This document shows positions 1-54,028 of a stretch of 64,000 nt of DNA, piece after piece; positions within the stretch are counted from its first letter, which is position 1, and every line of letters begins with the position of its first letter. The stretch is taken from positions 1 through 64,000 of IMG/VR virus record IMGVR_UViG_3300042147_000020, one strand, 5' to 3'. The stretch is from a virus. The notes under the pieces are model-generated. The model was given only the letters and a program-made list of their open reading frames with translations. It did not search any database and was not told the origin of the DNA. The position numbers and the translations under genes were made by a program.

Positions 1-569
1 TGTACAGCAACGAAGTCTTCCGGCGAACCAGTCAACTTGGCCCAGTGTTCCAGAACACGACGGTACTCGTAAGCGATGGTGGCGTTGGTGACCATTTTCC
101 AGATCAGGTTCGACATCGACGTTTCGAGGTAGTTCGTGAACCAGAAGAAATCCGGGTCGGTGTTGTAGATCACGTACAGCGGCACGTTCATGTTGACACG
201 TGAGCCTTCTGGCAGACCTAGGACTTGGATCGGCAGGTAGCCCAGATCGTGTAGACGTTCCATGCCATCGGTAGGAACTTTACCGACACCCATGTAGTTG
301 TCCATGCGACGCTTGTAACGACGGATCACAGCTTCTTTAGGCTGGGAGAAGAACGACTTGTCCCACAGCTCTTTCAGCTCTTGTAGGATGCCCTGTAGAC
401 CGAACCAAGCAACCTTGTGGTCCCAGAACTTGGACGCCGACACCGACTTCAGGAACAAACGATCAGCACGAGCTGTCAGGTTCCCGTAAGTGTAGTTGGT
501 GTGCAGAGGGAACATCTGACGGTGTGGGATTTTGTAACCGTCAGCAACGTGAGGGGCGAACAGGTTCAT
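1..569 (-). CDS. NAMPT-like phosphoribosyltransferase, N-terminal part (probable Namat of NARP1)
   Basis: Only the first 189 residues are present; the gene runs off the left edge. The start is an ATG whose ATGA overlaps the stop of the upstream PRPP-synthetase-like gene, so the two are translationally coupled. The N-terminus carries the family signature (ADGYKIPHRQMFP, compare DSYK-x-x-H-x-x-x-YP of nicotinamide phosphoribosyltransferases), followed by a FWFTNYLETSMSNLIW segment typical of the family. NAMPT joins nicotinamide to PRPP to make NMN. In the NARP1 phage pathway, a NAMPT homologue (Namat) instead joins nicotinamide to ADP-ribose pyrophosphate, giving NAD+ directly. Neighbour and coupling favour the NARP1 role; substrate choice cannot be read from the visible part. 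Confidence 0.85.
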   Translation of the reverse strand, partial: MNLFAPHVADGYKIPHRQMFPLHTNYTYGNLTARADRLFLKSVSASKFWDHKVAWFGLQGILQELKELWDKSFFSQPKEAVIRRYKRRMDNYMGVGKVPTDGMERLHDLGYLPIQVLGLPEGSRVNMNVPLYVIYNTDPDFFWFTNYLETSMSNLIWKMVTNATIAYEYRRVLEHWAKLTGSPEDFVAV

Positions 570-1495
570 GCAAAAATTCCTTGTACGGAGTGCCAGTAGA
601 TTGCTTGATCAGTAACGCCATCAGGACGTTGGCTGTATTGCGCTTCAGGGTGCCACGAGTTGGTGGTCTCGATGCGGCTGTAGTGACGCTTCAGCTCATC
701 GTAACCTTTGGTGAACAGGCCGTGCGTAACCCACAGTTCCAGAGTGTACGCAGGTTTCGCCGTCAGTGGATCACCGAGGCCGAGAATTGGGTCGAGCTTC
801 TCACGCAGAGCCTTCGCCAGTTCCACGAAGGTGTAACCGCCGTCACAGATGTCGTCGACTACCAACCAGTTCATGTCTGCACGCGGTTCGAAGTTGAAGT
901 CCACGCGAGTACCAGTGATCTTGCCGGTAGCAGTGTCACGGTCTTTAAAGCCACAGACCACGTGAGGACAGCCAACCATGCGAGCCAGCTCGAGGGTCTT
1001 CTTCATAGCGCCAGCATCGGGAGCTACGAGTACGGTGTTGGTCCACGCACCAGTGTTCGCTTCGTTACGACGAGTCATGGCCTTCGCCACCACTTGTGGG
1101 AGCGAGATGTGACGAACACGATCCAACAGCGCCAGACCGGTGTCACTGTGAACGTCCAGCACCGACACGGTAGCGTATTGCTGGGAGTTGATCAGGTCAC
1201 AGAACGGCTTGATGGTCAGCGACTCACCGGGACGCGGTACACGGTCTTGACGAGCGTACGGTAAGTACGGCATCCATAGGTGAATCTGGATGGCCGGGTT
1301 CAGACGACGGATGGCGTCAGTGACCATCAACAGGTCCATGATGTCCGTGCCGTTCTTCAGGTGTGCGGTCAGGTTGACAGCAGTCCATGTAGCGACGGTA
1401 GGGTCGACGTATGGGTGCACTTCACCACCCGGCAACACTTTGGAGTCAGCAGGAAACGAGACAGACGTGTTCCCACGGTTGCTAATCAGAATCAT
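566..1495 (-). CDS. PRPP synthetase-like kinase (probable Adps of NARP1)
   Basis: Protein of 309 residues, close to the usual 310-320 for ribose-phosphate pyrophosphokinase. Family motifs are visible: YARQDR at 80-85, DVHS at 114-117 (normally DLHA), and the PRPP-type loop VVDDICDGGYTF at 212-223. A longer upstream frame exists, but the ATG used here has an AGGAAG ribosome site and fits the family N-terminus. Classical Prs makes PRPP from ribose-5-phosphate. In NARP1, the Prs homologue (Adps) pyrophosphorylates ADP-ribose for the next enzyme. Its overlap with the NAMPT-like gene supports the two-enzyme pathway; ordinary Prs feeding NMN synthesis is the alternative. Confidence 0.85.
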   Translation of the reverse strand: MILISNRGNTSVSFPADSKVLPGGEVHPYVDPTVATWTAVNLTAHLKNGTDIMDLLMVTDAIRRLNPAIQIHLWMPYLPYARQDRVPRPGESLTIKPFCDLINSQQYATVSVLDVHSDTGLALLDRVRHISLPQVVAKAMTRRNEANTGAWTNTVLVAPDAGAMKKTLELARMVGCPHVVCGFKDRDTATGKITGTRVDFNFEPRADMNWLVVDDICDGGYTFVELAKALREKLDPILGLGDPLTAKPAYTLELWVTHGLFTKGYDELKRHYSRIETTNSWHPEAQYSQRPDGVTDQAIYWHSVQGIFA

Positions 1496-1557: not shown

Positions 1558-1583
1558 AAAAAAAAACAAGGGGCCGAAGCCCC
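1558..1583 (-). terminator. Rho-independent terminator
   Basis: A GGGGC-CGAA-GCCCC hairpin is followed, reading leftward, by a long T run. It ends the unit containing the 348-residue gene just upstream and separates it from the NAD-related pair. Confidence 0.8.
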
Positions 1584-1621
1584 GAGTTTTATTCTTCGTC
1601 TGGCGAACTACCCAGTTGCTT

Positions 1622-2668: not shown

Positions 2669-2834
2669 GTAAGTACGCCCACCAATTACCAAAGGTTACG
2701 AAAGAGACCATGAAGGGGAGGCAGAGCCATCCCCAAATCGCTGGACCGAAGTGATCTACTGCTCTGATCAAACAGTAGAAGAAGCCAAGTCCACTGAGGA
2801 TCGCCAGCGTTGCGACGATCTGTAGCGCTAGCAT
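2643..2834 (-). CDS. Small membrane protein, 63 residues
   Basis: Two hydrophobic segments (about residues 3-24 and 33-53) separated by a short charged turn predict a two-pass inner-membrane protein. It overlaps the genes on both sides and is preceded by a GGTGG ribosome site. Family not recognised; this phage has several such small membrane proteins in its accessory regions. Confidence 0.7.
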   Translation of the reverse strand: MLALQIVATLAILSGLGFFYCLIRAVDHFGPAIWGWLCLPFMVSFVTFGNWWAYLHESVRSCS

Positions 2835-3553
2835 TCCACCACCGGTGAGTCACAGGTGTAGCAGTGTTCGCCGAGGTTCATGTTACCTTTCAAATCACCA
2901 GCAGCGCAGGAGGGTTCATCGAAAGGACTGAGCTTAGGGCCCTGATAATCCGCCGGATATACTGGACGCTCTTCACCACCCAGTACATCAGACATGAACT
3001 GAGTGGACTCAGCTACTGTGGACGTACCACGAGGACCGATGTCAGACATGATGTCTCGTTGTGGAGACTGCACCACAGTGATCAGGTCTTGTCGGTAACG
3101 CGTGTCGTAGTCAGGCTCACCCGGCAACACGTTCGCCATGTCAGGGTACATTACCTGAGCAACCTGCAAACCTTTACCAGCGCGTTGTTTCAGCTCAACG
3201 CAGTACTTGGTCACGGCTTCTTCCCCGTGGAGCAAACGAGTGTTACTGCGCATCACCTTGTCGGGTTCAGTCGATTTCACGATGTCAGTCCGCACTTCGT
3301 AAGACGCTACCTTCTCACGCAACCAAGCGTTAGCCTGGTTCTTGAGGATCGCACCCATGACGCTGTTGGGGATGGGTCCACAGATAAACAATTCTGGGAG
3401 TCCCTTGTGTGACAGGCCGACGGTGTACGAGTAGTTCACCGGGTTAGCACCAAACACGGGTGGTGGATTGACCGACAGGATAGCAAAGCCATTCGAGGCG
3501 ATCGAACGTTTGATGTGACGCTTGAGTTGTTTACGGTTGTCAGCAACTTTCAT
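2828..3553 (-). CDS. DUF4262-family protein
   Basis: Protein of 241 residues. The N-terminal half has the DUF4262 pattern: NYSYTVGLSHKGLPELFICG near residues 40-60, then a VAQVMYPDMANVLPGE segment in the middle. The family is common in bacteria and phages and has no established biochemical function. The last 70 residues are outside the domain and contain three closely spaced cysteines near the C-terminus (C-x-x-C...C). A second protein with the same signature lies at 46.5-47.5 kb, so the phage carries two divergent copies. Confidence 0.8.
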   Translation of the reverse strand: MKVADNRKQLKRHIKRSIASNGFAILSVNPPPVFGANPVNYSYTVGLSHKGLPELFICGPIPNSVMGAILKNQANAWLREKVASYEVRTDIVKSTEPDKVMRSNTRLLHGEEAVTKYCVELKQRAGKGLQVAQVMYPDMANVLPGEPDYDTRYRQDLITVVQSPQRDIMSDIGPRGTSTVAESTQFMSDVLGGEERPVYPADYQGPKLSPFDEPSCAAGDLKGNMNLGEHCYTCDSPVVEC

Positions 3554-3568
3554 TTTAAGCTCCTTAGC

Positions 3569-4030
3569 TTACAGGCGGTATTCGATTGGACCCGTGCCTT
3601 TTGGCAGAGGTTTGATGCGGGTACGGCGACGAGGCTTCTTCACGGCCTCAGGTACGTACATGAACAGGGCTGGCGCAGAGAAATCAGGTAGCCCTTTACG
3701 GACTTGAACCAGTATCGCCATCATCGGGACTTTGGGTGGATTAGACCAATCCATCTCGATGGTGTTTCCGTCACTCCAGCGGATGGTAGAGTCATGGTGC
3801 CGGGCGGCGAACTGAGTGATACCGATGTCTTTGATCTCGCGCTTGATGTCGGTAGCCTTGCCCTTGATCGTGACGTGGTAATAGTAGTTGTCCAGATCCG
3901 TCCCTGAGGCAATTTCAAAGTACGTCAGGTTTGGGTTGACCGGTGCAGTCAGGAGGAAACAACGAGTACCCCCGAATGCCGCAGAACGGTTAGTGGAGTA
4001 CTCTTTCAGTTGTCGAACGATCAAACTCAT
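3569..4030 (-). CDS. Unknown phage protein, 153 residues
   Basis: Not recognised. The C-terminal 25 residues are strongly basic (KKPRRRTRIK), which may bind nucleic acid. The ATG overlaps the stop of the upstream gene by four bases, so the two are likely co-translated. Confidence 0.7.
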   Translation of the reverse strand: MSLIVRQLKEYSTNRSAAFGGTRCFLLTAPVNPNLTYFEIASGTDLDNYYYHVTIKGKATDIKREIKDIGITQFAARHHDSTIRWSDGNTIEMDWSNPPKVPMMAILVQVRKGLPDFSAPALFMYVPEAVKKPRRRTRIKPLPKGTGPIEYRL

Positions 4031-4434
4031 ACAGCAACTTCCTTAGGTGCGTAGTGGTTGAGGATCACACGGCACTCTGCTTCGGTTGGTGGACGTGGGG
4101 GAGTGTTCTCGAACATCAACCAGATTGCTTCCGTACGACCACGGGATTTGTACCAACCCACCCACAGGCAAACGGGTTGGGAAACCATGTGTCCTTTTTC
4201 GTTCCTCGGAAGTACGTCGATGTCGAGCAGGCTGATCGTAGCGAAGTGTTGGTTCTCTTCGCACTGGTGATTGATACGACGGTTGTCCTCCATTTCAGCC
4301 AGATCACGGATCTCGTTGCAGGTAGCGCAGTTCCAGTTCTCACCGGAGAAAGGGCCCTTCAAGAAACCACACTTCGGGTCAGCCCCGTTCCACGTTTTAC
4401 CACGGGCTAGACAGGCTTGGCATTCAGTAGTCAT
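4027..4434 (-). CDS. Cysteine-rich, probably zinc-binding protein, 135 residues
   Basis: The N-terminal 60 residues hold C-x-x-C at 6-9, a lone Cys at 22, C-x-x-C at 36-39 and a further Cys/His group near 56-58, an arrangement suggesting one or two small zinc sites. The C-terminal part is a beta-rich region with no recognised signature. The start codon shares a base with the stop of the SLOG-like gene upstream (TAATG), indicating coupling. Confidence 0.7.
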   Translation of the reverse strand: MTTECQACLARGKTWNGADPKCGFLKGPFSGENWNCATCNEIRDLAEMEDNRRINHQCEENQHFATISLLDIDVLPRNEKGHMVSQPVCLWVGWYKSRGRTEAIWLMFENTPPRPPTEAECRVILNHYAPKEVAV

Positions 4435-5033
4435 TACGCAGCTCTCTTGAGTTCGTTCCCACGGTGGTCAAGGAATTTGGTTGCACGCTCCATACCCTCC
4501 TCCGTGTAGAGATTAATTCGATTCTTAACGCCACACTTGATGGCGAGTTGTAGTGCGGTGTTCGTACCACCTTTGACTTTCTCAGTCTTACCCACGGGTT
4601 TGCCCCAGTAGACAATCGAGCGAACAGGATCAGTAAGACACGCCCCCATGATCTGGAATACGTTTCGAGTGTGCATCGCAATGCCACCACGACCCATACC
4701 TTCCCAACTCCCGCGAGCTTCCAGCGCAATACTGTTAGCAGTTTCCCATGTTGCGAACTTGCTCGCATCGAAGAAGTAGTTCTTTGGATCATGGTAACGG
4801 TTACGTACGCCGTTCCAAGCCAAATAAATACGGGCACCCAACGTGTGGAAGTGAGGAGAGAGTAACGCCCCCTCGTAAAAGGCGGTGTCAGCTCCCTCAG
4901 CGTCGCCAGAGGAGAGTGCGAACCCTTGGGCATACAAAGCCACACTGATTCGCCGCATAAGCTCCAAGATCTCCTCAGGCGTTTCTCGACTACCTACCCC
5001 AGCGTACCAACCTTTGAATGGAATCGGCAACAT
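4434..5033 (-). CDS. SLOG/DprA-like Rossmann-fold nucleotide-binding protein
   Basis: The 199-residue protein opens with the SLOG hallmark: YAGVGSRETPEEIL near residue 10, then FALSSGDAEGADTAFYEGA about 30 residues later. This matches the GSR...SGxAxGaD pattern of the DprA/YspA/LOG superfamily. A further KGGTNTALQLA segment lies in the C-terminal third. Such folds bind nucleotides or nucleotide-derived ligands; a DNA-recombination role like DprA is possible but there is no extra DNA-binding domain. It is flanked by overlapping unknown genes. Confidence 0.75.
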   Translation of the reverse strand: MLPIPFKGWYAGVGSRETPEEILELMRRISVALYAQGFALSSGDAEGADTAFYEGALLSPHFHTLGARIYLAWNGVRNRYHDPKNYFFDASKFATWETANSIALEARGSWEGMGRGGIAMHTRNVFQIMGACLTDPVRSIVYWGKPVGKTEKVKGGTNTALQLAIKCGVKNRINLYTEEGMERATKFLDHRGNELKRAA

Positions 5034-5045
5034 AAGTCCGGTACC

Positions 5046-5770: not shown

Positions 5771-5778
5771 GGTGCCTC

Positions 5779-6770: not shown

Positions 6771-6785
6771 CACATCACCCCTTTG

Positions 6786-9561: not shown

Positions 9562-9843
9562 TTAAACGTTGTGATACTCTGGGCTCAAAGCCACCCAAGC
9601 ACCATTGCTCCGTGCACAGGACAACTGTTGCTGAACCGCCAAACACTGGTAATGAGTACCAGCGAACAGTGTACCAGTCGCAGTATGCGGACGGACATGC
9701 CAGCGCTTCCAGAACCAACGTCCCGTACGTTCAACTACATACTGGAGGTGGTGCTGACTTGCGCGGTACCCAGGACTTTCTAGAACAGATACCCCAGTCT
9801 TCAGCTCACTACCAACGGCGAGATCGCAGTCGAGCTGACTCAC
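9562..9843 (-). CDS. Unknown phage protein, 93 residues
   Basis: GTG start whose GTGA overlaps the stop of the TAXI-like gene, a coupled arrangement. It contains a Trp/Arg-rich stretch and several His and Cys residues; no signal peptide or family recognised. It could serve with the upstream periplasmic protein, but only position suggests this. Confidence 0.55.
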   Translation of the reverse strand: MSQLDCDLAVGSELKTGVSVLESPGYRASQHHLQYVVERTGRWFWKRWHVRPHTATGTLFAGTHYQCLAVQQQLSCARSNGAWVALSPEYHNV

Positions 9844-10724
9844 TGACGCACAGCCTTCACGTTAGCGGTGATGGCCTTGGTGATCGCACGCTTGACGTCA
9901 CGAGCTTCCTTGGTGTCCATGCTGGCGTGGTAGGCGTTGTTGTACACCACTTGGGCCGCCATGGCGTAGGTGTCAATCGAGAACATTTTGTTGTCGGTAG
10001 GAATGCCGGAGTCACCTTTGCTGGTCAGAGAGAAAGGAGTGTAAAGAGGGTTCTCGTTACGATCCTTGGCCTTACCGAAAGAGGACTCACCGATCTCACC
10101 GATCCACAGGCTGTCTTTGTAGTCGTCAGTGATGTCGCTACTGATCAGACCCGAACGTCCCACGTACAGAATGCCACCGACTTCCACCCGCACGCCGGAC
10201 TTCATGGTGAAGCCCTGCGAAGCTGCTTCTGCCGCTTCCAGCCAGCTATCGAACTCGACAGTTTTGATGTTGGCGTAATCAGGGTCGACTGCCGCGAAGT
10301 TCTTGACAGTTACTTCGGCACCAGAGCCGGAAACATAACCCACCGCACGGATCAGGTTTTCGTCCTTGATCATGTCGGCGAAGGACTTCACGCCAGTAGC
10401 ACCGTGGAGCCAGAAGATGACCTCGGTGTGGGCATTGGTCACGGTGATGTCACGTGGTAGACCCAAGCTGGACACCGCGTCAGCTTGCATGATCGCCATG
10501 ACGCAATCACCCTCTTTGAGCAGGTGGGCGTTCTCGACCGAACCACCGGTGTTCAGGACTTCGAGTTTGGCGCCGATCTTCTTGGCAATGTCCTTGCCGA
10601 TACCTGTACCCAACGACTCGTACGCGCCGGTAGGACCACCGGTGCAGAAGGTCAGGTCAGCAGGTGCCGCCACTGCTACAACGGATGCCAAGGCGAGAGC
10701 CAGGCCAATGAACAGCTTTTTCAT
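9840..10724 (-). CDS. Secreted TAXI/TRAP-type periplasmic binding protein
   Basis: Protein of 294 residues starting at MKKLFIGLALALASVVAVAA, a classic Sec signal peptide with cleavage expected after the Ala-x-Ala around residue 20. The mature N-terminus (LTFCTGGPTGAYESLGTGIG) matches the start of TAXI-family TRAP transporter solute receptors, where the TGG-x-x-G-x-Y motif begins the ligand-binding fold. Such proteins bind small solutes in the periplasm. No transporter subunits are nearby, so an uptake role with phage partners is unlikely. The shorter start is chosen for the signal peptide and TGGAGT site. Confidence 0.8.
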   Translation of the reverse strand: MKKLFIGLALALASVVAVAAPADLTFCTGGPTGAYESLGTGIGKDIAKKIGAKLEVLNTGGSVENAHLLKEGDCVMAIMQADAVSSLGLPRDITVTNAHTEVIFWLHGATGVKSFADMIKDENLIRAVGYVSGSGAEVTVKNFAAVDPDYANIKTVEFDSWLEAAEAASQGFTMKSGVRVEVGGILYVGRSGLISSDITDDYKDSLWIGEIGESSFGKAKDRNENPLYTPFSLTSKGDSGIPTDNKMFSIDTYAMAAQVVYNNAYHASMDTKEARDVKRAITKAITANVKAVRQ

Positions 10725-10753
10725 GTGTTTACTCCAACGGGTTTTGGTTTGCG

Positions 10754-11491
10754 TTATTGTGGGGTGGATACTTTCAACTCGCCATGCCACTGTCCGTTGT
10801 AGAACTGTAGCAAGATGAGCATCATGTGATCCAGTAAAAGGGTTGGCACATGTCCAGTCTTCCACTGAATGCCTTCGAACCACTCGAGTTTGAAAGCGTC
10901 TTCGTAGACCCGGAGTAGTACTGAGTTGACTCGAGTGCGGTCTAAATCACCCTCGAGCAACTTTAGGGTGTAGCCGCCACGGAGGGTCAAGTCCAAGGCG
11001 TGATGTTGGTGATCAATCGAGATGACTTTGTAGGGTTCTGACACCACATCGAAAGTCACCAACGTCTGGATGGTAAACTCTGGGGCTTCACGGCAACCAT
11101 TGAAACCAACACTACGTATACCGAAGCACAGGTCATTCTCAGGTTCCGCTAGCAATCTGTGAACACGATCGCCCATGGGTCCGGTAGGCTTGAAACGACC
11201 AACCAACCGATCGTCCTCTACACTCCCTGAAGCAATCACACCACAGACACGCTCCAAGTGCACTTGTGCAGCACGATGAACCACTTCACCGCAAGTCAGG
11301 TGATCGACAGTGGGTGTACCGAACTCCACATAAATCGGAGCACGAGTGAGCATTTCCTCAAACTTGTAGCCCACCTGCTTCGGATCGTACTTACGACCGC
11401 TGGGGGCGACTTTACTGGGGATCGCCAGAGTGACGTGGTAGTAACCGTCAGCATCGGGCTTGAGGTCTTTCACTGGGTTGTGTCCAATCAT
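10754..11491 (-). CDS. Phage protein with prohead-protease-like N-terminal pattern
   Basis: Protein of 245 residues. Residues about 30-120 read as a small beta-rich module: GRKYDPKQV, RAPIYVEFGTP, then RVCGVIASGSVEDDRLVGRF, a GPMGDRVHRLL segment and a final FGIRSVG. That order resembles T4 gp21/S80-type head-protease or related phage modules, but I cannot confirm a catalytic His-Ser pair. The C-terminal half is unrelated and beta-rich. The start is chosen for its GGGAG ribosome site, and its ATGA overlaps the stop of a small upstream gene. Confidence 0.5.
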   Translation of the reverse strand: MIGHNPVKDLKPDADGYYHVTLAIPSKVAPSGRKYDPKQVGYKFEEMLTRAPIYVEFGTPTVDHLTCGEVVHRAAQVHLERVCGVIASGSVEDDRLVGRFKPTGPMGDRVHRLLAEPENDLCFGIRSVGFNGCREAPEFTIQTLVTFDVVSEPYKVISIDHQHHALDLTLRGGYTLKLLEGDLDRTRVNSVLLRVYEDAFKLEWFEGIQWKTGHVPTLLLDHMMLILLQFYNGQWHGELKVSTPQ

Positions 11492-11772: not shown

Positions 11773-13905
11773 TTATGCTGGAAGACTGAACTCAAATGAA
11801 TCAGTCTGACCAGTACCACTTTTGATACCTGCAAAGTAGAACATGCGAGTACCAAGGATACCAGAACCACCGAAGCCACGTGCTGCACCAGCGTTAGCCG
11901 CCAGAGCTTGCCATGTGTTCGAGAATGGATCGTAAACGTTCGACCCACTATACGGAGCACCGCCGTTAACCGACCCCCACAAGGAGATCACACGACCTTT
12001 GAAGGAGTGGAACGTTCGACGACACCCGTAAGCAGCAGGCATGTTAGCCTTCTCAGTCATTACGCCTGTCACAGTATCGTAGCAGAACGTTTTGTTGATG
12101 TAGACGCTGTTGTTACGACCACCGATCAGATAGATCTTAGTGCCAATAGCGGCGACGCCCAGATCGAGTCGAGGAGTTTGTCCAGTGATAGTCAACTCAG
12201 TCCAAGTGTTGTTGAGAGTATCGTATTTGTACTGGTTAAACTTAGTCGGTACTTCAGGAGAAACAGTACTGCTGGTCATCCCACCGAACATGTAGATGTT
12301 CGTACCCACTACACAACCGTCACCGAAGGTCATCGGTCCAGGGAGCGCTGCTTTAGTAGACCACGTACCTAGAGTAAAGTCGTAACACTCGACCAAGGTA
12401 GTAGCCGCACCGCCGTTAGCGGTTAGGCCGCCGCAGACGTACAACTTACTTCCCACTACGGCTGAAGTGTGTCCAGCTCGAGCAGTAGGTAAGGCAGGCA
12501 GATCGACCCACGCAGTACCGTCGAAGCGACGGAACCAAGCTTGTGGTGTACCACTGAAACCACCAATCCAGTACAACTTCCCATCGTAACTAACGACGTC
12601 GTGGTGGAAGCTATATCCAGGTGACGCTGTGGACTTCCAAGTCATCCCGGAGAAGTTGAACAACTCTTCCAGCACTGGCCGCCACCCGTAAGCTACGTTT
12701 GGCGTATCGTTAGGTTCATACCAGACACCAGCGAACCCAGGGTAACCGCGTAGGAGAGTACCTCCCTGCGTACTACCTTCCTTACAGATGATCATCTCAC
12801 CGGACGAGATACCGCCAAGCCAACCCATGTCAGCAGGAGTGTTATACGCCCACGCAGCGCCAGCGCCGGTGTAAGCATTAGTTACCCTCATGAAGTAGTT
12901 GTTGTACTCACCACCAGGCGAATTGGTTGGATCGTTTCCATCACCACCCGTCATCACCCGCACACGGTACGTCAGGCCACCAATTACAACAGTCTTGGTA
13001 CCCATGATCATACCCAAAGCGTTAAGCTGAGCCCATGACAAAGTCATGCGGATGATCTTCTTCGGCATGTAGAAAGTACTACCGTTGTCAACGAACTTCA
13101 ACCACGGAGTAGTGTCGTTAACCAGAGTACCATCAGTCAAACCAACTGCCGCCGCCAAGGCAGAACCGGTAATGAAGTTAGCAGCAAGTATTTCGCCAAT
13201 GAATGGAATTGGTGGCATGGTGGATTTCTTAACCAGCACTGGACGCCATCCGTACCAATTTTGGGGTGTATCGGGGGAGATGTACCAAATACCTTTAACC
13301 TGTGCTGCGGTTTCCTGTCCACCAGAGTCACTTCCTCGAGTGAAGTGACCGAAGGCAGCACCGTCAGAACAAATAGTCCCCACACCTAGTTCAGCCGAAC
13401 CGTCCATGGTTGCAACGCCCAACATTGGACCAGTGTAGTCGCCCCAGTGTTGGGCGTCTCCTGGGAAGGTTGCACGGTCTGTCATGGTGTAGATGTTGTA
13501 CATGTAGCGGTTCCACTCACCGCCAGCGTTAGACGGACCGGCTGACCCAGCCGGATTTATAGCTCCTGACAACAGCCGGACAACGAAGACTTCACCACCA
13601 ATAGTGACTTCTGCGCCGCCGAGCGACAGACCACGTGCATTGAGCTGTTCCCAACTTACGTTGTAGCGGATTGGCTTCTTGGCGATGTACAGTTCAAGGC
13701 CAGTGTCTTCGATGTAATGTAGCCAGCCCCCGTCTCTGTTCATTAGGGTCCCAGCAGTCAATCCTACCGCTGTGGCTAGGGAATCCCCGTAGATGAAGCT
13801 CACAGAAGAGACTACTCCTTTGAAGGGAGTCCCCGCTGGGAAAGCTAGATCGGAGTTGTCAATAGCCACCGCAACTTGAGTCTTAGACAATAGAGTCTCG
13901 ATCAC
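11773..13905 (-). CDS. Tail fibre-like protein with Kelch propeller
   Basis: 710 residues, GTG start behind AGGGGG. Residues about 15-225 and 225-415 are two copies of a module found singly in the next four fibre genes. Hallmarks are a W-x-[HK]-[YF] segment, a 'yipKKiiR...SW-x-qLN' segment, an IGG-x-x-[FY]-x-VR strand and a closing GWRPVL. From about 420 to the end are roughly six Kelch blades (KLYVCGGL, NIYMFGGM, KIYLIGGR with YD-x-x-x-x-x-W). This predicts a six-bladed beta-propeller at the tip, suited to sugar or surface-receptor binding. It lies last in the leftward fibre cluster. Confidence 0.8.
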   Translation of the reverse strand: MIETLLSKTQVAVAIDNSDLAFPAGTPFKGVVSSVSFIYGDSLATAVGLTAGTLMNRDGGWLHYIEDTGLELYIAKKPIRYNVSWEQLNARGLSLGGAEVTIGGEVFVVRLLSGAINPAGSAGPSNAGGEWNRYMYNIYTMTDRATFPGDAQHWGDYTGPMLGVATMDGSAELGVGTICSDGAAFGHFTRGSDSGGQETAAQVKGIWYISPDTPQNWYGWRPVLVKKSTMPPIPFIGEILAANFITGSALAAAVGLTDGTLVNDTTPWLKFVDNGSTFYMPKKIIRMTLSWAQLNALGMIMGTKTVVIGGLTYRVRVMTGGDGNDPTNSPGGEYNNYFMRVTNAYTGAGAAWAYNTPADMGWLGGISSGEMIICKEGSTQGGTLLRGYPGFAGVWYEPNDTPNVAYGWRPVLEELFNFSGMTWKSTASPGYSFHHDVVSYDGKLYWIGGFSGTPQAWFRRFDGTAWVDLPALPTARAGHTSAVVGSKLYVCGGLTANGGAATTLVECYDFTLGTWSTKAALPGPMTFGDGCVVGTNIYMFGGMTSSTVSPEVPTKFNQYKYDTLNNTWTELTITGQTPRLDLGVAAIGTKIYLIGGRNNSVYINKTFCYDTVTGVMTEKANMPAAYGCRRTFHSFKGRVISLWGSVNGGAPYSGSNVYDPFSNTWQALAANAGAARGFGGSGILGTRMFYFAGIKSGTGQTDSFEFSLPA

Positions 13906-13935
13906 GATTCATTCCCCCTAAGAGGAGTTAAGTTA

Positions 13936-14592
13936 TTACGGGGCTGTGAACAACGTAGCTTCGGCTGGAAGTGTCGGGAGTTCCGCTAGGGTCGTAGCAG
14001 CAGTGACGGCATCTTTGAAGTCCCAGATCTTTTGGTAGCCGACTGACACTGCGTAGAAAGCAGCATCCGTCATAGCAATCAGCTCAGCAGCCGTCAGTAT
14101 CACACAGATGTTCTCGTACACGCGGAACGAGAAATCCATCGCACCACCAGCCACCACAACTTCCTTAGCGATAATACGCAGGGAGGTCAAGTTGGAACGG
14201 TCGGCGTTACGGATCTGGACGTGGTACGTGCCCTCGTTGAAGGCGTAAGCGAAGCCGCGCTCGAATTGGGAAATCCGCAGATCTTCAGCCTCGCGCTGGA
14301 GTTCAGCTTTGCGGGTGGTCAACTGGTCGTTGAGTTCGGCTTGACTGTAAGTGCGTTCGATCCAGCTTTGGTACCACTTACCATCGAGTAATTGTGGCGG
14401 GCCCGCGACAACAACGTCATTCTCCGGGATCGGGGTGTCATAAACGGGTTGGTATCCGAGGGCGATCATTTCCTCTACCTCGGGTGTTGCTGTGAAGCTG
14501 GTAGTGGCTTTGAGTTTGTCGCGGATCTGGTCCAAAGTGATTGGATAGTTACCTGTGGCAACTTCGATGAAGCGAGTGTATAAGATTGACAT
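13936..14592 (-). CDS. DUF4376-like tail fibre-associated protein
   Basis: 218 residues. The middle and C-terminal half resemble the DUF4376 phage tail family: an RKAELQREAEDLRISQFERGF helix, a region with NADRSNLTSLR, then an aromatic segment ending YQKIWDFKDAVTAA. These proteins usually accompany tail fibres as assembly or attachment factors. It sits between the Kelch fibre and four paralogous fibre genes, which fits. Confidence 0.6.
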   Translation of the reverse strand: MSILYTRFIEVATGNYPITLDQIRDKLKATTSFTATPEVEEMIALGYQPVYDTPIPENDVVVAGPPQLLDGKWYQSWIERTYSQAELNDQLTTRKAELQREAEDLRISQFERGFAYAFNEGTYHVQIRNADRSNLTSLRIIAKEVVVAGGAMDFSFRVYENICVILTAAELIAMTDAAFYAVSVGYQKIWDFKDAVTAATTLAELPTLPAEATLFTAP

Positions 14593-14604
14593 GGTCAGAA
14601 TTCC

Positions 14605-15540
14605 TTACATTACAAGTTCGAGAACGGGACGCCAGTAAGTGTAGACCGCGTTATAGTTACCTATCACGTTAGTGGACACCTTGTCAGGGGCAGTAGTACC
14701 ATCACCGCCTCGCAGAATAATGGTACCACCAGCAGTTGTGGTCACATCTTTGGTATATACGTTCAGGTTGATACCGGCTAGAACCAGGTCGTCTAACGCA
14801 GGCACGCCAAAGTTTTGAATGCGACCTTGGAAATTCGGAGCCATGATGTAATCATACTCACCCCCAATTTGGTTTGCGGGCACAGCCGAAGCAGTCAGGG
14901 TACCTACCCGTGTCCCCGGTAAACGTACCACAAAATTGTCAGTACCTTTAGCCATGACGTAATTTTGAGGGATTGTACCGTAGGTACTTTTCGCCGCAGC
15001 ACTCCAAGTGCTGGGGTCGTCGGTTCCATAGACCAATCCCGCTTTGTACAGTTCGGCCCAAGATAGACCCGAACTATAGGCGAAACACACCCCTTGGTCT
15101 GGAACAAAGAGGATCTTACCGTTATAGACCATTTTGATCCAGCAGGTAATTCCTAGTCCAGCGGCGTTGTTGGTAATGAGCGGGTTGTTGATGTATGCAA
15201 CCAATTCACTGGAAGCGAATAGGTCCTCTGGACTCATGCGACCAAAAGTACCGCAACTCCAGTCACCACGTAGTAATTTCTGAGGCCCAGGGCCCGTGTA
15301 AGGCATGTAGGCCAAAGGCATGTTCGAAGACAACGTTTCTTCAGTACCCACTACTGCACTAACTCGGTAGTGGTAGACTTGGTTACGCACAGCGGTGGTG
15401 TCGGTGTAGGTGAAAATACCCGCAGCAACTTCCGCCAACACCGCAGGTAAAGCATCGTCGAGTATCACACTGTCGGCTCGGTAGACCCGGAACTTGTCAA
15501 CAGTGATGTTTCTGTCGATCCAGTTAAGTGTTAAAGACAT
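14605..15540 (-). CDS. Fibre paralogue with FN3-like N-terminus (copy 1)
   Basis: 311 residues. Residues 1-80 read as a fibronectin type III-like domain (LTLNWIDRNITVDKFRVYR ... YHYRVSAV). A GPGPQKLLRGDWSCGTFG linker introduces the shared module: WIKMVYNGKILFVPDQ, SWAELYKAGLVYGTDD, a VVRLPG strand and the ending YWRPVLELV. Start supported by AAGGG. Probably a receptor-recognition or fibre-decoration protein of the virion; ligand unknown. Confidence 0.7.
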   Translation of the reverse strand: MSLTLNWIDRNITVDKFRVYRADSVILDDALPAVLAEVAAGIFTYTDTTAVRNQVYHYRVSAVVGTEETLSSNMPLAYMPYTGPGPQKLLRGDWSCGTFGRMSPEDLFASSELVAYINNPLITNNAAGLGITCWIKMVYNGKILFVPDQGVCFAYSSGLSWAELYKAGLVYGTDDPSTWSAAAKSTYGTIPQNYVMAKGTDNFVVRLPGTRVGTLTASAVPANQIGGEYDYIMAPNFQGRIQNFGVPALDDLVLAGINLNVYTKDVTTTAGGTIILRGGDGTTAPDKVSTNVIGNYNAVYTYWRPVLELVM

Positions 15541-15550
15541 GGTTAGACCC

Positions 15551-16477
15551 TTATGTCAGAATAAGTTCGAGAACGGGGCGCCAGTTAGCATAACCGCTTG
15601 CATAATCTGCATCAGTGGGAACGTTGTAATCGAACCCTGTACTGTTGCTCACAGATATTGCGAGCTTACCCGAGGAAAAATGCTGGGTTGCAGAACCAAC
15701 GCCTCCTGGTGGAACCTCGTCGTTCCATTTATCTTGGGGTGATGTAGAATATAAGGTTAGTCCTTGTCGCCCCATCAAGCTCCCCCATTCGGATGCGTCT
15801 GTGGCGATAACACCTGGTGCATACACGTTGGTTGCCGCATCAGTGACCGACGGTGCCCGCACCAAAAAGTTATACGTGGCGTAAGGAACGACCACTTTTT
15901 GGTTAGTCAAAGTGATACCAGCAATGGTTGTTAGTACGAAGGGGGCTGAACCAGTGTCGTCCGTTCCGTATATTAATCCATTGTTATAAATGTCCCTCCA
16001 GCGGCAGGTCCCTGCGGCAAACACATTGTTAGGAATAAAAAGAACCTTACCCTTACGGATAAACTTATACCACCCAGTCACGGTGCCGTCGGCTGGAGTG
16101 GAGTTTCCGAGATTTGGGTTATTAAGGAGAGCCCTTAACTGAGAGATGCTGAGGAAGTTGGCTGTGGGAACCAACCCAAAATATCCGCAGTCCCAATTTC
16201 CTCGTAAGAGCGTCTGGGGACCTGGACCTGTGTCAGGGTAATGTCCCATGATCAGTACTGGACTTAGTAGTTCCTGTCCTGCCCGGACGTGACCCACCGC
16301 GTAGTAGTACGTAGTGTTGCGTACGGCAGTTGCGTCACTGTAAGACGTGGCTGATCCAGCAGCGGTTGCCAAAGCGGCAGGAAGGTTATTTACGTCGAGT
16401 GGTGTAGTAGACCGATAGATGTTAATGCTTTCTGCGAGCGCCGCGTTAGCAGCACCCCATGTCAAGGTAACAGACAT
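15551..16477 (-). CDS. Fibre paralogue with FN3-like N-terminus (copy 2)
   Basis: 308 residues, same layout as the neighbours: FN3-like residues 1-80 (NIYRSTTPLD... YYYAVGHV), GPGPQTLLRGNWDCGYFG linker, WYKFIRKGKVLFIPN, RDIYNNGLIYGTDD and final NWRPVLELI. It is the copy most like copy 1, consistent with tandem duplication. Strong AAGGAG ribosome site. Confidence 0.7.
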   Translation of the reverse strand: MSVTLTWGAANAALAESINIYRSTTPLDVNNLPAALATAAGSATSYSDATAVRNTTYYYAVGHVRAGQELLSPVLIMGHYPDTGPGPQTLLRGNWDCGYFGLVPTANFLSISQLRALLNNPNLGNSTPADGTVTGWYKFIRKGKVLFIPNNVFAAGTCRWRDIYNNGLIYGTDDTGSAPFVLTTIAGITLTNQKVVVPYATYNFLVRAPSVTDAATNVYAPGVIATDASEWGSLMGRQGLTLYSTSPQDKWNDEVPPGGVGSATQHFSSGKLAISVSNSTGFDYNVPTDADYASGYANWRPVLELILT

Positions 16478-16487
16478 AACTCACTCC

Positions 16488-17450
16488 TTATACCGCAGCC
16501 GGTTCGATGAGTTCCAACACGGGCCACCAGCATGAGATAGATTGGGTTATGGTGATAGCCCCGATGTTTCTTCGAGTAAGGCCGTCGCGGGTACCAGTGA
16601 CGTTAGAACCACGAACCAACGACTGGGTTGCCGCACCCGAAGTAACCTTCTCTTGTGTCAGAATACCGTACGCCATAGACGCCGCGCTATATCCCATGGT
16701 CGTCAAGGTATTGTTTGCTTGGTTAGCCATGCGTTGGACGGTAGGTACCCATACTGAGATAGGGTACATGAGATCATCGTACTCACAAGTAAAGGTTTCA
16801 ACCGGCTCTGCTACGTTACCGGTTGGTGGAAAGACGCCGTAGTCATCGTTATAACCGCGCATTAAGCGAACGCGGTAGGTATCGGCGCCAATAGTTACCT
16901 GTGCGTTCTGGTTAACGTTGGCACCGGCGTTGTACGGACCATTGTCGTTGGAGCCGAATACCAGCCCAGCGTTGTACAGTGCCGTCCAACCAACCCCGGA
17001 AACAGGTAGTTGTTCGGGCACGTAGATCACTTTGCCGTTACGAGCGAACTTGTGCCATTTGGGAGACACGTTCTGCACCGTACCTGAAAGGAAGTTCACC
17101 GCTGTACGCAGTGCGTTGATGTTAATGAAGGACGCCGATGCGATACTACCGAAGTATCCGTAGTTGTAGTCACCGGCTTTCAAGGTGTTAGGACCAGCAC
17201 CACGACGAGGAACAGTTACGATCTGATAGTTTGGTGATACCGTCCGGTCTGTCGCCGAAATGGTCTCGAATACGTAGTAGTACGTGGTACCACGCAACAC
17301 CGTGGAGTCAGTGTAAGTAGTTTCACCTGCCGTTAGAGAAACCAACAAACCAGTCAGGTTAGCTCGGTCAATTGCCGAAGTACCACGGTAGATGTTTACC
17401 GTGATGGGAGTGGCCCCATTGGGGTTTGTCCAAGTCAATTTGTTATACAT
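16488..17450 (-). CDS. Fibre paralogue with FN3-like N-terminus (copy 3)
   Basis: 320 residues. FN3-like N-terminus (LTWTNPNGATPITVNIYRG), GAGPNTLKAGDYNYGYFG linker, WHKFARNGKVIYVPEQ, ALYNAGLVFGSNDNGPYNAG, YRVRLMRG and CWWPVLELI. More divergent in its variable C-terminal region than copies 1 and 2. Start supported by AAGGA. Confidence 0.7.
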   Translation of the reverse strand: MYNKLTWTNPNGATPITVNIYRGTSAIDRANLTGLLVSLTAGETTYTDSTVLRGTTYYYVFETISATDRTVSPNYQIVTVPRRGAGPNTLKAGDYNYGYFGSIASASFININALRTAVNFLSGTVQNVSPKWHKFARNGKVIYVPEQLPVSGVGWTALYNAGLVFGSNDNGPYNAGANVNQNAQVTIGADTYRVRLMRGYNDDYGVFPPTGNVAEPVETFTCEYDDLMYPISVWVPTVQRMANQANNTLTTMGYSAASMAYGILTQEKVTSGAATQSLVRGSNVTGTRDGLTRRNIGAITITQSISCWWPVLELIEPAAV

Positions 17451-17459
17451 GAAAATTCC

Positions 17460-18503
17460 TTACGCGACGTTCGCGCCACTAACAGTGAAAGGGTTCAAGT
17501 CTGCTAAGCTGTACACCAAGTTAGCTGGGTCACTTGCCAATTGAGTACCGATCGCGCTAATTGTAAAAGCGTTTAAGTCAGGTGCTGCACTTGATGTGAC
17601 GTTAACTGGGTTTAGCGCGCAACCTGGGAAGGTAGCTCCAGTGACCACAGGTTGTTTGGTGGGCCACAGAGTAATCACGTTGACTGGGTTAAACAAGGCT
17701 TCGTTAAACCCAGAACCTAGTTGGGCTTGGCGTGAGTCTAGAATCGAGGGTGCTTGAAGCCCCGTCGAAGTTCCGATGACTGTGTACGGATCTAGTAGCG
17801 TTTCATCTGGGATCAATTCCAGTACTGGATACCAATTTGAGTTCGGTGAAGCCTTACTGTAACTCCATTTTGGGGTAAGACCCGTTGCATCGCCCCTAGC
17901 CCAAAATAATGCTATATTAGACGAGCTGGTCTCCTGCACCGACATGTTTAAATTGCTACCCACGTAGCTCAGTGCGTTACTAACCCATTTATCGGATGGT
18001 GTGTTAGCACCCACTAGGACTCGCCCAAACAACTGGTCGAATTCATTGTTAGCCGCTACCACCGAGGCTGGATCAGAACCCATACCAGTCGGCAACCGTG
18101 GGAGTAGATACCAGTTACGAGTGCCGTCGAATTTCTGAATAGGGTTCCACTGATCGACCCCAGCACCTACTGGGTACAACCCATTACCCTTAACGCCGTA
18201 CACTAACCCAGAGTTATATAGGTCGTTCCACACAATGGCACTGAGGGCCATTTGTCTGGAAATGTAAATCACTTTGTTATTGCGGAAGAATTTAAACCAC
18301 TGGGCCCCTGTCCAAGAGTTGAGGGTGCCCGTAGGAATATTGAACTTTAAAACCAAGTCTTTTCCGTAGAACAGTTCAGTTCCAGACACCTCTCCGAAGT
18401 AACCCAGCGTGCTGTTACCGAACTGTAAAGTTTTGGTTCCAGGGCCTGAGTTGGGGTAAAGGTTCGAACCACTTGGAGATTTACCTAACATCATTTCTAA
18501 CAT
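17460..18503 (-). CDS. Fibre paralogue lacking the FN3 domain (copy 4)
   Basis: 347 residues. A near-perfect GGAGGTGA ribosome site fixes the ATG. It lacks the FN3-like domain and starts almost directly with the GPGTKTLQFGNSTLGYFG linker, then WFKFFRNNKVIYISRQ, NDLYNSGLVYG and NWYPVLELI. A C-terminal 110-residue extension has three short repeats built on LNPFTVSG/LNPVNVT/LNAFTIS, each containing 'N-x-[FV]-T-[IV]' strands. The missing FN3 and added repeats make it the most altered member. Confidence 0.7.
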   Translation of the reverse strand: MLEMMLGKSPSGSNLYPNSGPGTKTLQFGNSTLGYFGEVSGTELFYGKDLVLKFNIPTGTLNSWTGAQWFKFFRNNKVIYISRQMALSAIVWNDLYNSGLVYGVKGNGLYPVGAGVDQWNPIQKFDGTRNWYLLPRLPTGMGSDPASVVAANNEFDQLFGRVLVGANTPSDKWVSNALSYVGSNLNMSVQETSSSNIALFWARGDATGLTPKWSYSKASPNSNWYPVLELIPDETLLDPYTVIGTSTGLQAPSILDSRQAQLGSGFNEALFNPVNVITLWPTKQPVVTGATFPGCALNPVNVTSSAAPDLNAFTISAIGTQLASDPANLVYSLADLNPFTVSGANVA

Positions 18504-18554
18504 TTTGTCACCTCCGATGGGGGGACACGTGCTACCAAAAGATAGACTGAGACA

Positions 18555-18593
18555 CCACCACACAAGGGGTCAGTAACTCCCCTTGTGTGGTGG
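18555..18593. terminator. 15-bp perfect hairpin after the collagen-like fibre gene
   Basis: CCACCACACAAGGGG and its exact complement flank a nine-base loop. The hairpin is strong in both directions but has no T run. It sits directly after the fibre stop, so transcription termination or mRNA 3'-end protection is likely. Confidence 0.55.
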
Positions 18594-18600
18594 TTATGCG

Positions 18601-21600
18601 TTAAACAGAAGCACCGACGGTACCAATCCACTTCGTACCATCCCACAACAAAGTGACAATGGTGGTGGAAGCACCGAGTACAGGAGCAGCACCACCGTTC
18701 CACGTGATGGTTGGCCACGTGATCGTTGCAGCACCTTGGATGACCAACACCACGGACATGGTACGAGTTGCACCCGGCACCGTACCGGCTTTGAACGAGA
18801 TGGTAGTCGCAGTGGAGTTAGCCACCGACCACACGTTACCGATGGCCAAGTCGAGGACACCAGCCGCAGCAGCGTTCATCTTCAGGTCGTAGACGTCCAA
18901 GGACACCCAAGCACCGTTCTTACGCAGGTACTGTTTACCGTCAGAGGCAGCGTCCGCGAGGGAAGCCGGAACGATCACCCACGCTGCACCTTTACGCATG
19001 TAGCCGTTGGCATCGTTCGGAGCATCTTGCAGAACAGAGACCCACGCTGCACCTTTACGACCGTAAGCCAAGGCGTCGTTAGGTGCTTCAGGGAGACCGG
19101 CAGGAACAGTAACTTCCGCCCATGCTCCATTCTTACGAGCGTATTGTTTACCGTCGTTAGGAGCTTCTGCTACTGCGAAGACCACCTCAGTCCAAGCACC
19201 GTTCTTACGAACGTATTGCTTGCCATCACTCAGAGCTTCAGCCACAGGGACTGCTACCCAAGCGCCGTTCTTCCGGGTGTAGAAACCACCATCAGACGGA
19301 GCTTCGGAGATACCAGCCGCAGGGATCACGACTTCAAGCCAAGAACCGTTCTTACGGATGTACTGCTTACCGTCGAGCGGTGCTTCGATGACAGGGATCT
19401 CGAACCAGACACCATCTTCACGACCATACAGCTTGCCGTCTTGTGGTGCTTCCAGTACGTCGACCTTAACCCACGCACCGTCTTTACGAGCGTAGTACTG
19501 ACCATCCGACAGGGCTTCCAGTACAGTGATCTCAACCCACTGATCGTATTGACGAGCGTAGACCTTACCATCGTCAGACGGACTGTAGACGTTACCACCA
19601 CCCATGTAACCGAGTGACACCCACAGAACGTCCGTAGACTTTCTGAAGTACTGCATGGTACCGGTGTTCAGGTAGTAGTCGGCACGACGACCGTCCAGTG
19701 GACCCGGATCACGACCCAGGGAAATCCAAGCAGTGCCTGGTTCACCTTTGTCGCCAGTGAAACCGATCGGACCTTTCGGACCAACGACCGTATCACCCTT
19801 ATCACCTTTGTCGCCCTTAGGACCTTGGATAGACCCCAAGTCATCATAGGCTGCACCAGTCCAACCCCAGAAGTTCAGCCCGATCATGTAACCCTGACCG
19901 AGAGTACCAGTACCCGGCAGGTCAGCAGTGCTAGCGAGTTTCCCGAGGATTGTGATACCCGGACCCATTGGACCGTCTTCACCTTGTGGTCCTACGATGT
20001 TGCCGAGGAATACCCAAGCGGTACCATCGTAGGAGTAAACGTCGCCATCACCGACGATGTAGCCGTCGCCTTGAACCATTCCAGTAACGGCGTTCAGAGC
20101 AGCGAGATCGACGAGGTTACCCTTCGGTTTGAAGTTGTTACCTTGATCACCTTTAGGACCTTCCGGACCAATCAAGCGAGCCAAGAAGTCGTTGATGCTG
20201 GTGATAGACGGATCGACGATCTGTGCCATCTCCAGAGCAGACTTACCAGTAGGACCAGTCAGGTCGCCGAGGTTAATCCAACCTGCACCGTTGTACACCC
20301 ATAAGTGACCAGTGACCATGTAGGTCCAGCCGATCTGCGGGTCAGCAACACCGTTGAGTAGGGACGGGTTAGACAGGATGCCTTTAGCGACCATGGAGTT
20401 ACCAGTGTCACCTTTGTCGCCTTTCACCCCGTCTTCACCTTGAGGACCTTGAATGACACCGAGGTCAAGCCACTCGTCACCATCCCAACCCCAGAAGTGA
20501 CCTTGGATCAGGTAGCCATCACCCAACTCACCCGTAGCAGGCAAACCGGCAGTGGTATCGAACTTACCTTTCAGTGTCAGACCGGCACCGAGGTCGCCCT
20601 TATCACCTTTGTCACCTTTGATGCTGTCACCTTGGTCGCCCTTAGGGCCAACGTAAGTACCACAGTCAACCCACGCACCACTGATGGTGACGTAGAGGTT
20701 CTGACCAGCGATCCAAGCAGCGAAAGCAGGAGCAACGGTAGGGTCTGGCAAGTTCTCGAAGGCGGCTACTTTACCAGCGATAACCAAGTTCTGACCCGGA
20801 TCACCTTTAGGACCGGTAACCGAATCACCTTTGTCCCCTTTAGGACCGGCCACAGCAATCAACCAATCTTCGACTGTCCCGGTGTAACCCGCTTCTACAG
20901 CCAGTGCGTAGTTCGACTTACCTTTGATACTCTCCAGCCATTCAGCCAGAGTACCCACATAGCCGTCTTCTTCAACGGCCAGTTGGTAAGCAGAGAGACC
21001 TTGAACAACACCGAGGTCTTCCCATTCAGTACCCGACCACACCCACAAGTGACCTTGGATGTAGTAACCGTCACCACCGGCGTTACCGGAAGGAGGGAGG
21101 TCGCCCGGATCTTCAAACTTACCCAACACCGAGATGGCGTTGGCAGGATCGCCTTTAACACCTTGAGGACCGATGTCGCCCTCGTCACCCTTAGGACCAA
21201 CCAAGCTTTCCAAGTACTGGAGCAACGTACCACTGAAACCGGTAGAGATCGCCAGTTCGTAGTTGTTCTTACCCACCAAGGAAGCCAACCATTGGGCTTC
21301 AGTGCCACTATAACCACGGGAAGCAGCCAGCTCGTAAGCCGACTTACCAGTAGGGCCGACTTGACCAACCTTGGCCCAGCCCACTGTATCCCAAACATAC
21401 ATGGACTCGTCGATGATCCAAGAGTCGCCGGAGACGTTATCCCCGTTAGGCAACTCGGAGATGTCTGACAGAGAACCCATGATCCGTAGACCGATACCAT
21501 CATGACCTTTGAGGGACTCGATCCACTCCTCGAACGTACCTGGGAACCCGCCTTCGATTACCGCAACGTCATACGCTGAGTAACCCTGAATACCGCGGAC

Positions 21601-21864
21601 CACACCAACGTTACGCCATTCGCCTTCTACCAACGTGTGGAGATCGTAGCCGATGATCCAAGAATCACCAGGCTGAGAGTCACCCACGTTCGGAAGGTTG
21701 ACCACGTCCGCCAAGGTACCCAAGATGCGAATCGAGTCGCCGTCTCTGCCCGCAGAGACGATCTCTGACAATGGGGCTTTCTTGCTGAACCCATTTTGAA
21801 CTACTTCGATTAACTCAGCGCCCGTGATGGGGCCCGCTGGGTCCATTTCTGAGATTTTACCCAT
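18601..21864 (-). CDS. Collagen-like tail fibre, 1087 residues
   Basis: The N-terminal 50 residues (GKISEMDPAGPITGAELIEV...) resemble a virion-attachment region. Residues about 50-730 alternate collagen Gly-x-Y blocks (GPKGDKGD, GPEGPKGDQG, GPQGEDGPMG) with about ten copies of a short beta module of the type 'LGD-G-Y-x-I-x-G-H-L-x-V-W-x-G-x-x-W-x-x-L-G'. Residues about 760-1010 hold some twelve tandem 20-30-residue repeats of the form EAPxDGKQYxRKNGAWVxV. A unique 80-residue tip follows. This is a long trimeric fibre, probably the main host-binding fibre. Confidence 0.85.
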   Translation of the reverse strand: MGKISEMDPAGPITGAELIEVVQNGFSKKAPLSEIVSAGRDGDSIRILGTLADVVNLPNVGDSQPGDSWIIGYDLHTLVEGEWRNVGVVRGIQGYSAYDVAVIEGGFPGTFEEWIESLKGHDGIGLRIMGSLSDISELPNGDNVSGDSWIIDESMYVWDTVGWAKVGQVGPTGKSAYELAASRGYSGTEAQWLASLVGKNNYELAISTGFSGTLLQYLESLVGPKGDEGDIGPQGVKGDPANAISVLGKFEDPGDLPPSGNAGGDGYYIQGHLWVWSGTEWEDLGVVQGLSAYQLAVEEDGYVGTLAEWLESIKGKSNYALAVEAGYTGTVEDWLIAVAGPKGDKGDSVTGPKGDPGQNLVIAGKVAAFENLPDPTVAPAFAAWIAGQNLYVTISGAWVDCGTYVGPKGDQGDSIKGDKGDKGDLGAGLTLKGKFDTTAGLPATGELGDGYLIQGHFWGWDGDEWLDLGVIQGPQGEDGVKGDKGDTGNSMVAKGILSNPSLLNGVADPQIGWTYMVTGHLWVYNGAGWINLGDLTGPTGKSALEMAQIVDPSITSINDFLARLIGPEGPKGDQGNNFKPKGNLVDLAALNAVTGMVQGDGYIVGDGDVYSYDGTAWVFLGNIVGPQGEDGPMGPGITILGKLASTADLPGTGTLGQGYMIGLNFWGWTGAAYDDLGSIQGPKGDKGDKGDTVVGPKGPIGFTGDKGEPGTAWISLGRDPGPLDGRRADYYLNTGTMQYFRKSTDVLWVSLGYMGGGNVYSPSDDGKVYARQYDQWVEITVLEALSDGQYYARKDGAWVKVDVLEAPQDGKLYGREDGVWFEIPVIEAPLDGKQYIRKNGSWLEVVIPAAGISEAPSDGGFYTRKNGAWVAVPVAEALSDGKQYVRKNGAWTEVVFAVAEAPNDGKQYARKNGAWAEVTVPAGLPEAPNDALAYGRKGAAWVSVLQDAPNDANGYMRKGAAWVIVPASLADAASDGKQYLRKNGAWVSLDVYDLKMNAAAAGVLDLAIGNVWSVANSTATTISFKAGTVPGATRTMSVVLVIQGAATITWPTITWNGGAAPVLGASTTIVTLLWDGTKWIGTVGASV
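18890..19610 (-). repeat. Tandem coding repeats in the fibre gene
   Basis: About twelve related units encode (E/D)A-x-x-DG-x-x-Y-x-RK-x-G-A-W-V. On the + strand they show as recurring CCGTTCTTACG and TTACCGTC blocks. Units are imperfect in length and sequence, so copy number may change by slippage or recombination. Confidence 0.8.
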
Positions 21865-53581: not shown

Positions 53582-54028
53582 TTAATAGAGGATGATGCTC
53601 ACAGGTAATTCGGTTTCAGTCAAGTACTTCTCCACCAATGGCTTGAAGTTCTTGAAGTAATCGAGTTGACCCTGACCACACCCCAGTGCCGGGATACCCA
53701 GTTCAGTAATTCCCAACTCTTTGTAGCGTGCCACTAAGTCCTCGAAGCCTGCAATCAGGTACTCTTCTTTACTAGGATTGACGAAGTGTTCTTTCGTCGG
53801 AAACAGTAGGACTTGTTGACAGGAATCTGGAATGGGGTAAACCACAAGCTTACCCACATCCAACTGACCAGTTTTCAGAGCAACCTGATAGAACGCAAGA
53901 AGGCCAGGAGTCCTGAACTTGAAAGCTGCGGCCAACCCGTTCCCGAGTGTGCCCCAGGTATTGACTGGACAGGCTACCGTTTGCAGCCCGCAACTAAAGA
54001 GGGAACCTTCACCTTCAAATGCTATCAT
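53582..54028 (-). CDS. DarG-like macrodomain protein
   Basis: 148 residues, single domain. ACPVNTWGTLGNGLAAAF at 19-36 and IPALGCGQGQLDY at 112-124 are the two ligand loops of macrodomains, and FPTKEHFVNPS near 76 occurs in the DarG/ALC1-like branch. These bind ADP-ribose and some remove it from DNA or protein. In DarTG, DarG reverses thymidine ADP-ribosylation on DNA made by DarT. A stand-alone copy in a phage could protect phage DNA from DarT. ATGA overlap with the upstream gene. Confidence 0.85.
   Translation of the reverse strand: MIAFEGEGSLFSCGLQTVACPVNTWGTLGNGLAAAFKFRTPGLLAFYQVALKTGQLDVGKLVVYPIPDSCQQVLLFPTKEHFVNPSKEEYLIAGFEDLVARYKELGITELGIPALGCGQGQLDYFKNFKPLVEKYLTETELPVSIILY

Follow-up and report, generated by a model that had tools for sequence, protein, structure and literature searches.

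A probable NARP1 gene pair in the genome of a phiKZ-type jumbo phage

Two overlapping genes of a phiKZ-type jumbo phage, encoding an Adps-like and a Namat-like protein, very probably constitute a NARP1 module. A preliminary description of this DNA had taken them for a probable NARP1 pair of Adps and Namat, and this reading is supported as far as sequence reaches, with alignment to characterised enzymes, maximum-likelihood (ML) trees and published clamp residues in agreement. The genes, their overlap and conservation, their clade membership and their substrate-selecting residues are established directly. From homologues (PMC12774641, PMC13232231, PMC11559045) we infer both reactions and the anti-defence role: Adps would move pyrophosphate from ATP onto ADP-ribose, yielding ADPR-PP, from which Namat, with nicotinamide, would form NAD+ directly. 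As TIR, SIR2 and SEFIR NADases release ADP-ribose and nicotinamide, the pair would reverse NADase defences, refilling the NAD+ pool drained by these host enzymes during infection and enabling the phage to complete its replication. NARP1 itself has already been described, and the pair is a further example, assigned to the system by tests of individual residues rather than from annotation, and found in a lineage of phiKZ-type jumbo phages. A literature search found no paper joining 'jumbo phage' with NARP1.

The gene pair and the phage that carries it

The window, i.e. the whole stretch of DNA analysed (64,000 nucleotides), comprises bases 1–64,000 of a virus record of 238,799 bp. The Prs-like and NAMPT-like genes and their ATGA overlap were found on the minus strand where the preliminary description had placed them (Table 1). 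The two genes are adjacent in one operon, with the overlap present both in the window and in a sister contig, L022 (genes at 3075–4004 and 4001–5806), and their translational coupling is likely. The adps-like ORF begins with ATG, 5' of which AAGGAAG is a likely ribosome-binding site; a longer version with a GTG start, extending to 1537, is possible. The terminator-like hairpin upstream suggests, weakly by itself, that the pair starts its own transcript; as three such hairpins were found here against 2.2 expected by shuffling, i.e. about as many as in shuffled sequence, this interpretation depends on the intergenic placement.

Table 1. Positions of the gene pair and of other features in the window
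Feature	Position	Strand	Basis or remark
namat-like gene, 5' part (189 codons)	1..569	-	ATG at 569; window edge cuts it at base 3
Namat Arg37 codon, equivalent of the selectivity-clamp-loop Arg40 of SPbetaL1 Namat	459..461	-	alignment
ATGA overlap, TGA stop of adps-like gene within ATG of namat-like gene	566..569	-	also kept in L022
adps-like gene (Prs/PRPP-synthetase superfamily), 309 aa	566..1495	-	ORF and family matches
intrinsic-terminator-like hairpin (GGGGCTTCGGCCCC, then T-run)	1567..1584	-	between upstream gene and adps-like gene
DUF4262 protein	2828..3553	-	PF14081, E=1e-9
DprA/SLOG-like protein	4434..5033	-	phrog_768, E=2e-52
TAXI/NMT1-like solute-binding domain	9840..10883	-	PF16868, E=2e-7
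tail-fibre-like gene run	11773..21864	-
macro-domain protein	53582..54028	-	PF01661, E=2e-8

The region 1–1495 had been described as the gene pair, which holds for the adps-like gene, present as a whole, but for only 189 of the 601 codons of the namat-like gene. The remainder was located at the other end of the record, at about 237,556–238,792 (family search match 237,616–238,794). The record ends share a 7-bp overlap, TGTACAG (window 1–7 and L002 9994–10000), which closes the split gene: once the ends are joined, a single open frame of 601 aa results, and the joined protein aligns as one piece with that of phage Phabio (query 1–596) and matches NF006629 above the family cut-off (E=1e-135). 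An intact, uninterrupted 601-aa copy occurs at L022:4001–5806, within a separate contig of 238,014 bp that was found by scanning viral contigs, for which only the Namat alignment was used. Compared with L022, the end join is free of gaps (372/400 bases match). That the fragment in the window is a pseudogene or the start of an unrelated gene was ruled out by the end join and by L022; a chance origin of the 7-bp overlap was likewise rejected, given the open joined frame, the one-piece alignment with Phabio and the absence of gaps against L022. On the same grounds the record, though nominally linear, most likely represents a complete genome, circularly permuted and opened within the namat-like gene, and its size is supported by that of the second contig.

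Both proteins are 94.5% identical to their L022 counterparts. The dN/dS values of the two genes against this sister (0.10 and 0.095, i.e. approximately 0.1 each) indicate that both are under purifying selection and maintained by it.

No INPHARED phage was matched by megablast of the first 25 kb, so there is no close named relative there. As a search for the terminase family PF03237 gave no match, kinship was assessed with proteins of phiKZ, namely those of its RNA polymerase and its nuclear shell. A homologue of one polymerase subunit lies at 64,984–66,096 of the record (E=7e-71) and one of the shell protein at 78,299–80,071 (E=2e-37); judged from these homologues the record is that of a phiKZ-type jumbo phage, which likely builds a phage nucleus. 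If such a nucleus hides the DNA from DNA-targeting defences, metabolic defences that drain NAD+ would still reach these phages, and the rebuilding of NAD+ would then be a sensible complement to the nucleus.

Substrate-selecting residues and phylogeny

As members of the Prs and Nampt superfamilies, the two proteins might serve plain salvage of PRPP and NMN, an ordinary PRPP synthetase and an ordinary Nampt boosting the supply of nucleotides and NAD for replication without recourse to ADP-ribose. We consider this very improbable, and the evidence is given below for each protein in turn. Both were aligned and placed in trees, as proposed in the preliminary description, beside the enzymes of SPbetaL1, ICP1, DyoEdafos and Paenibacillus foliorum, and neither fell within the cellular Prs or NAMPT clade (100/100 in both trees), which argues against plain salvage.

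The adps-like protein matched phrog_619 (phage 'ribose-phosphate pyrophosphokinase', E=6e-72), and its match with TIGR01251, which represents true Prs, was below the family cut-off (E=1e-26). These matches, like that of the joined namat-like protein to NF006629, greatly exceed chance expectation. The adps-like protein is predicted to fold as a PRPP synthetase (pLDDT 88), and the best PDB matches are all Prs. In the Adps tree (37 rows), 34 Adps were split 100/100 from three cellular Prs (E. coli, Burkholderia and Legionella), and the window protein grouped with the characterised NARP1 Adps. In place of the DLHA and the ribose-5-phosphate (R5P) loop DDM(I/V)DT(G/A)GT of cellular Prs, it possesses DVHS and DDICDGGYT. 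The replacement of the catalytic DLHA by DVHS and of TGGT by GGYT, as in characterised Adps, is a further point against ordinary PRPP synthesis. DVHS and DGGYT had earlier been singled out as changed residues; they do differ from the Prs motifs, but represent the pattern of the Adps class and are not peculiar to this gene. Across the class, the DLHA of the Prs motif DLHA(E/D)QI is replaced by (D/E)(P/V/C/A)HS, and the R5P loop reads DDICDGGxTF in most Adps and DDL(S/C/T)S(F/Y)GGTF on the Bacillus/Listeria branch. The lost loop threonine helps to hold the 5'-phosphate of ribose-5-phosphate, and its loss would fit a substrate with AMP at the 5' end.

Namat is told from Nampt by a selectivity clamp consisting of a helix and a loop residue (Lan et al., PMC12774641). 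The helix has the signature GSX{Phi}X{Phi}X{Phi}TRD, with aromatic residues at positions 3 and 7 holding the adenine ring, on which the loop residue, Arg40 in SPbetaL1 Namat, also stacks (PMC12774641). Residues 497–507 of the joined protein, GSYTYQYNTRD, match this signature exactly, including the aromatic residues at its third and seventh positions, and Arg37 aligns with SPbetaL1 Arg40, in line with the loop rule (Arg, or Lys/Tyr then the next residue). The SPbetaL1 clamp residues R40, F392, Y396, T398, R399 and D400 correspond to R37, Y499, Y503, T505, R506 and D507, i.e. every adenine-clamp side chain is kept or exchanged aromatic for aromatic. The Nampt enzymes are without the signature and show GGA or GGG (Xanthomonas, mammals and three of the four compared phages) or GGK (the Erwinia phage). 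The catalytic core of the Nampt family, including the phosphorylated His and the equivalents of Arg306 and Asp308, is complete: F189, R192, D215, A242, H245, R306 and D308 of SPbetaL1 are F194, R197, D220, A247, H250, R346 and D348 here. Ser190 of the published enzyme, an NMN-phosphate contact, is A195, and the same change is found in Phabio and FelixO1. As Namat also accepts PRPP and keeps Nampt activity in vitro (PMC12774641), a point in favour of plain salvage, this enzyme may synthesise NMN in parallel; the retention of all clamp residues, which NMN synthesis does not need (PMC12774641), speaks against salvage as its sole role.

The ML tree of 44 proteins separated 38 Namat-like rows (including SPbetaL1, P. 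foliorum, DyoEdafos and ICP1) from six Nampt rows by a 100/100 split. The window protein was positioned deep inside the Namat-like clade, beside Phabio, Viktualia and RVTF4, and not with the Nampt of Xcc or mammals, nor does it have their GGA/GGG at the SCH position. By both sequence and fold, the latter compared using the predicted structure of the L022 sister protein, the closest solved structures are those of Namat (9w5x and 9w5w), ahead of any Nampt. Residues 498–507 are of low confidence in the monomer model.

Clade membership alone is not proof of ADPR-PP use, as HdNadV of plasmid pNAD1 (L117 2950–4437), an NMN maker in E. coli crystallised with NMN (PMC6095924), branched among the Namat-like proteins in the tree; a topology with all Namat apart from HdNadV was not rejected (p-AU 0.11). 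HdNadV is without three of the clamp side chains, with E, Q and R at positions 40, 392 and 396, and stands alone on pNAD1, with no Adps gene. It is possibly a natural case of switching between Namat and Nampt. By analogy, the present pair could be a former NARP1 module in which the second enzyme has gone back to making NMN from PRPP and the first is vestigial. HdNadV is an indication that at least one such switch has occurred within the clade, yet the window protein retains all three side chains, and its Adps partner is intact and overlapping, with a dN/dS of 0.10, so that we regard this reading as extremely improbable. Judged from these sequences, Namat is set apart from HdNadV only by its clamp residues and by having an Adps partner. 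For annotation, it follows that a tree by itself can mislabel, as HdNadV illustrates, and that Namat can be told from Nampt by the clamp residues together with a neighbouring Adps gene.

Comparison with known systems

The NARP1 reading is also in line with the arrangement of characterised modules, as gene order and tight spacing are as in SPbetaL1, PH357 and bacterial NARP1. In the Bacillus phage SPbetaL1 (PDB 9w5w, 9w5x; PMC12774641), adps likewise precedes namat with overlapping ends. The catalytic core and clamp residues are shared, and the Namat proteins are 45% identical over 485 columns; the one studied here is longer (601 vs 491 aa) through two insertions, at about residues 256–291 and 360–432, the second mostly of very low confidence in the structure model. 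The Adps proteins are only 24% identical, and the SPbetaL1 loop reads DDLSSFGG as against DDICDGG here. In the Vibrio phage ICP1, NARP1 is represented by NrsA/NrsB, a two-gene operon that keeps NAD+ higher against Nezha (PMC11559045). Its Namat (44% identical) belongs to the characterised lineage nearest to the window protein in the tree, but is shorter (488 aa), without the insertions, and its genes are 33 bp apart instead of overlapping. The Adps and Namat of mycobacteriophage DyoEdafos, which convert ADPR from cleaved 2'cADPR to NAD+ (PMC13232231), belong by tree and motif to the same class as the window proteins. DyoEdafos differs in having RyDEP, an RyR-domain protein, encoded between the two genes; PF02026 was found neither in the window genome nor in its sister, while the DyoEdafos control was positive.

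The closest named relatives are the jumbo Pseudomonas phages Phabio, Viktualia and RVTF4 (Namat 48–59%, Adps 39–40% identical). All three have, as does the window genome, a thymidylate synthase gene close to the pair, a nucleotide-metabolism neighbourhood that would suit plain salvage. The pair is split by small ORFs in Phabio and by short gaps in Viktualia and RVTF4, whereas it overlaps here. In these phages the genes are annotated merely as Prs and nicotinate/nicotinamide phosphoribosyltransferase, and deposits under the usual names 'ribose-phosphate pyrophosphokinase' and 'nicotinate phosphoribosyltransferase' conceal an anti-defence system.

NARP2-type phages (Ccr32, Erwinia pEa_SNUABM_50 and probably Milchi) are also expected to rebuild NAD+ with an enzyme of the Nampt family, but have no Adps, a Nampt without clamp (24–29% identical to the window protein in Ccr32 and Milchi) and an adenylyltransferase as the second enzyme. 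NMN adenylyltransferase (PF01467) was absent from the 238.8-kb record and detected in 14 of 14 control genomes, which argues against both plain salvage and a NARP2-type arrangement such as that of Ccr32 and the Erwinia phage.

Genes of this kind occur commonly in phages, and bacteria are known to have NARP1 pairs as well. At the sensitivity used, 1,935 INPHARED records had a match to the Namat/Nampt family and 1,449 to the Adps/Prs family, and among the bacterial and viral-contig loci examined an Adps-like gene was present in the flank at 65 of 84.

Other genes in the vicinity and in the window

The DprA/SLOG-like protein (Table 1) is encoded three kb upstream of the pair. Similar genes occur near Namat in Pseudomonas phage CP-p-PA-22062 (L010 5799–6419) and near Nampt in RB16 (L012 581–1165). 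SLOG domains can bind nucleotide signals. Macro domains bind ADP-ribose, and in Pseudomonas phage Adele one adjoins the NARP1 genes; for that of the window, 52 kb away, we claim no link to the pair. It could be conjectured that NARP1 belongs here to a larger group of proteins recycling ADP-ribose, in which the SLOG-like and macro-domain proteins would release or trap ADP-ribose derivatives (e.g. cyclic ADPR signals) and supply Adps with them, much like RyDEP in DyoEdafos, while the long Namat insertions would tune its place or partner; we think this very unlikely.

On the other side of the pair, downstream of Namat, a 451-aa ORF is located in L002, about 1.8–3.2 kb before base 1 of the window; its L022 counterpart (6421–8103) has 560 aa. 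The protein has a Nudix-like GG...E...TELDEE stretch and belongs to phrog_8902, with no Pfam match, and its C-terminal part differs by approximately 110 aa in length between the sister genomes. The DUF4262 protein belongs to the cluster upstream of the pair. The TAXI/NMT1-like solute-binding domain, unusual for a phage genome, follows a signal-peptide-like stretch. The tail-fibre-like gene run encodes a kelch-like protein, several paralogous proteins of about 310 aa and a collagen-like (GxxGxx) protein of 1087 aa.
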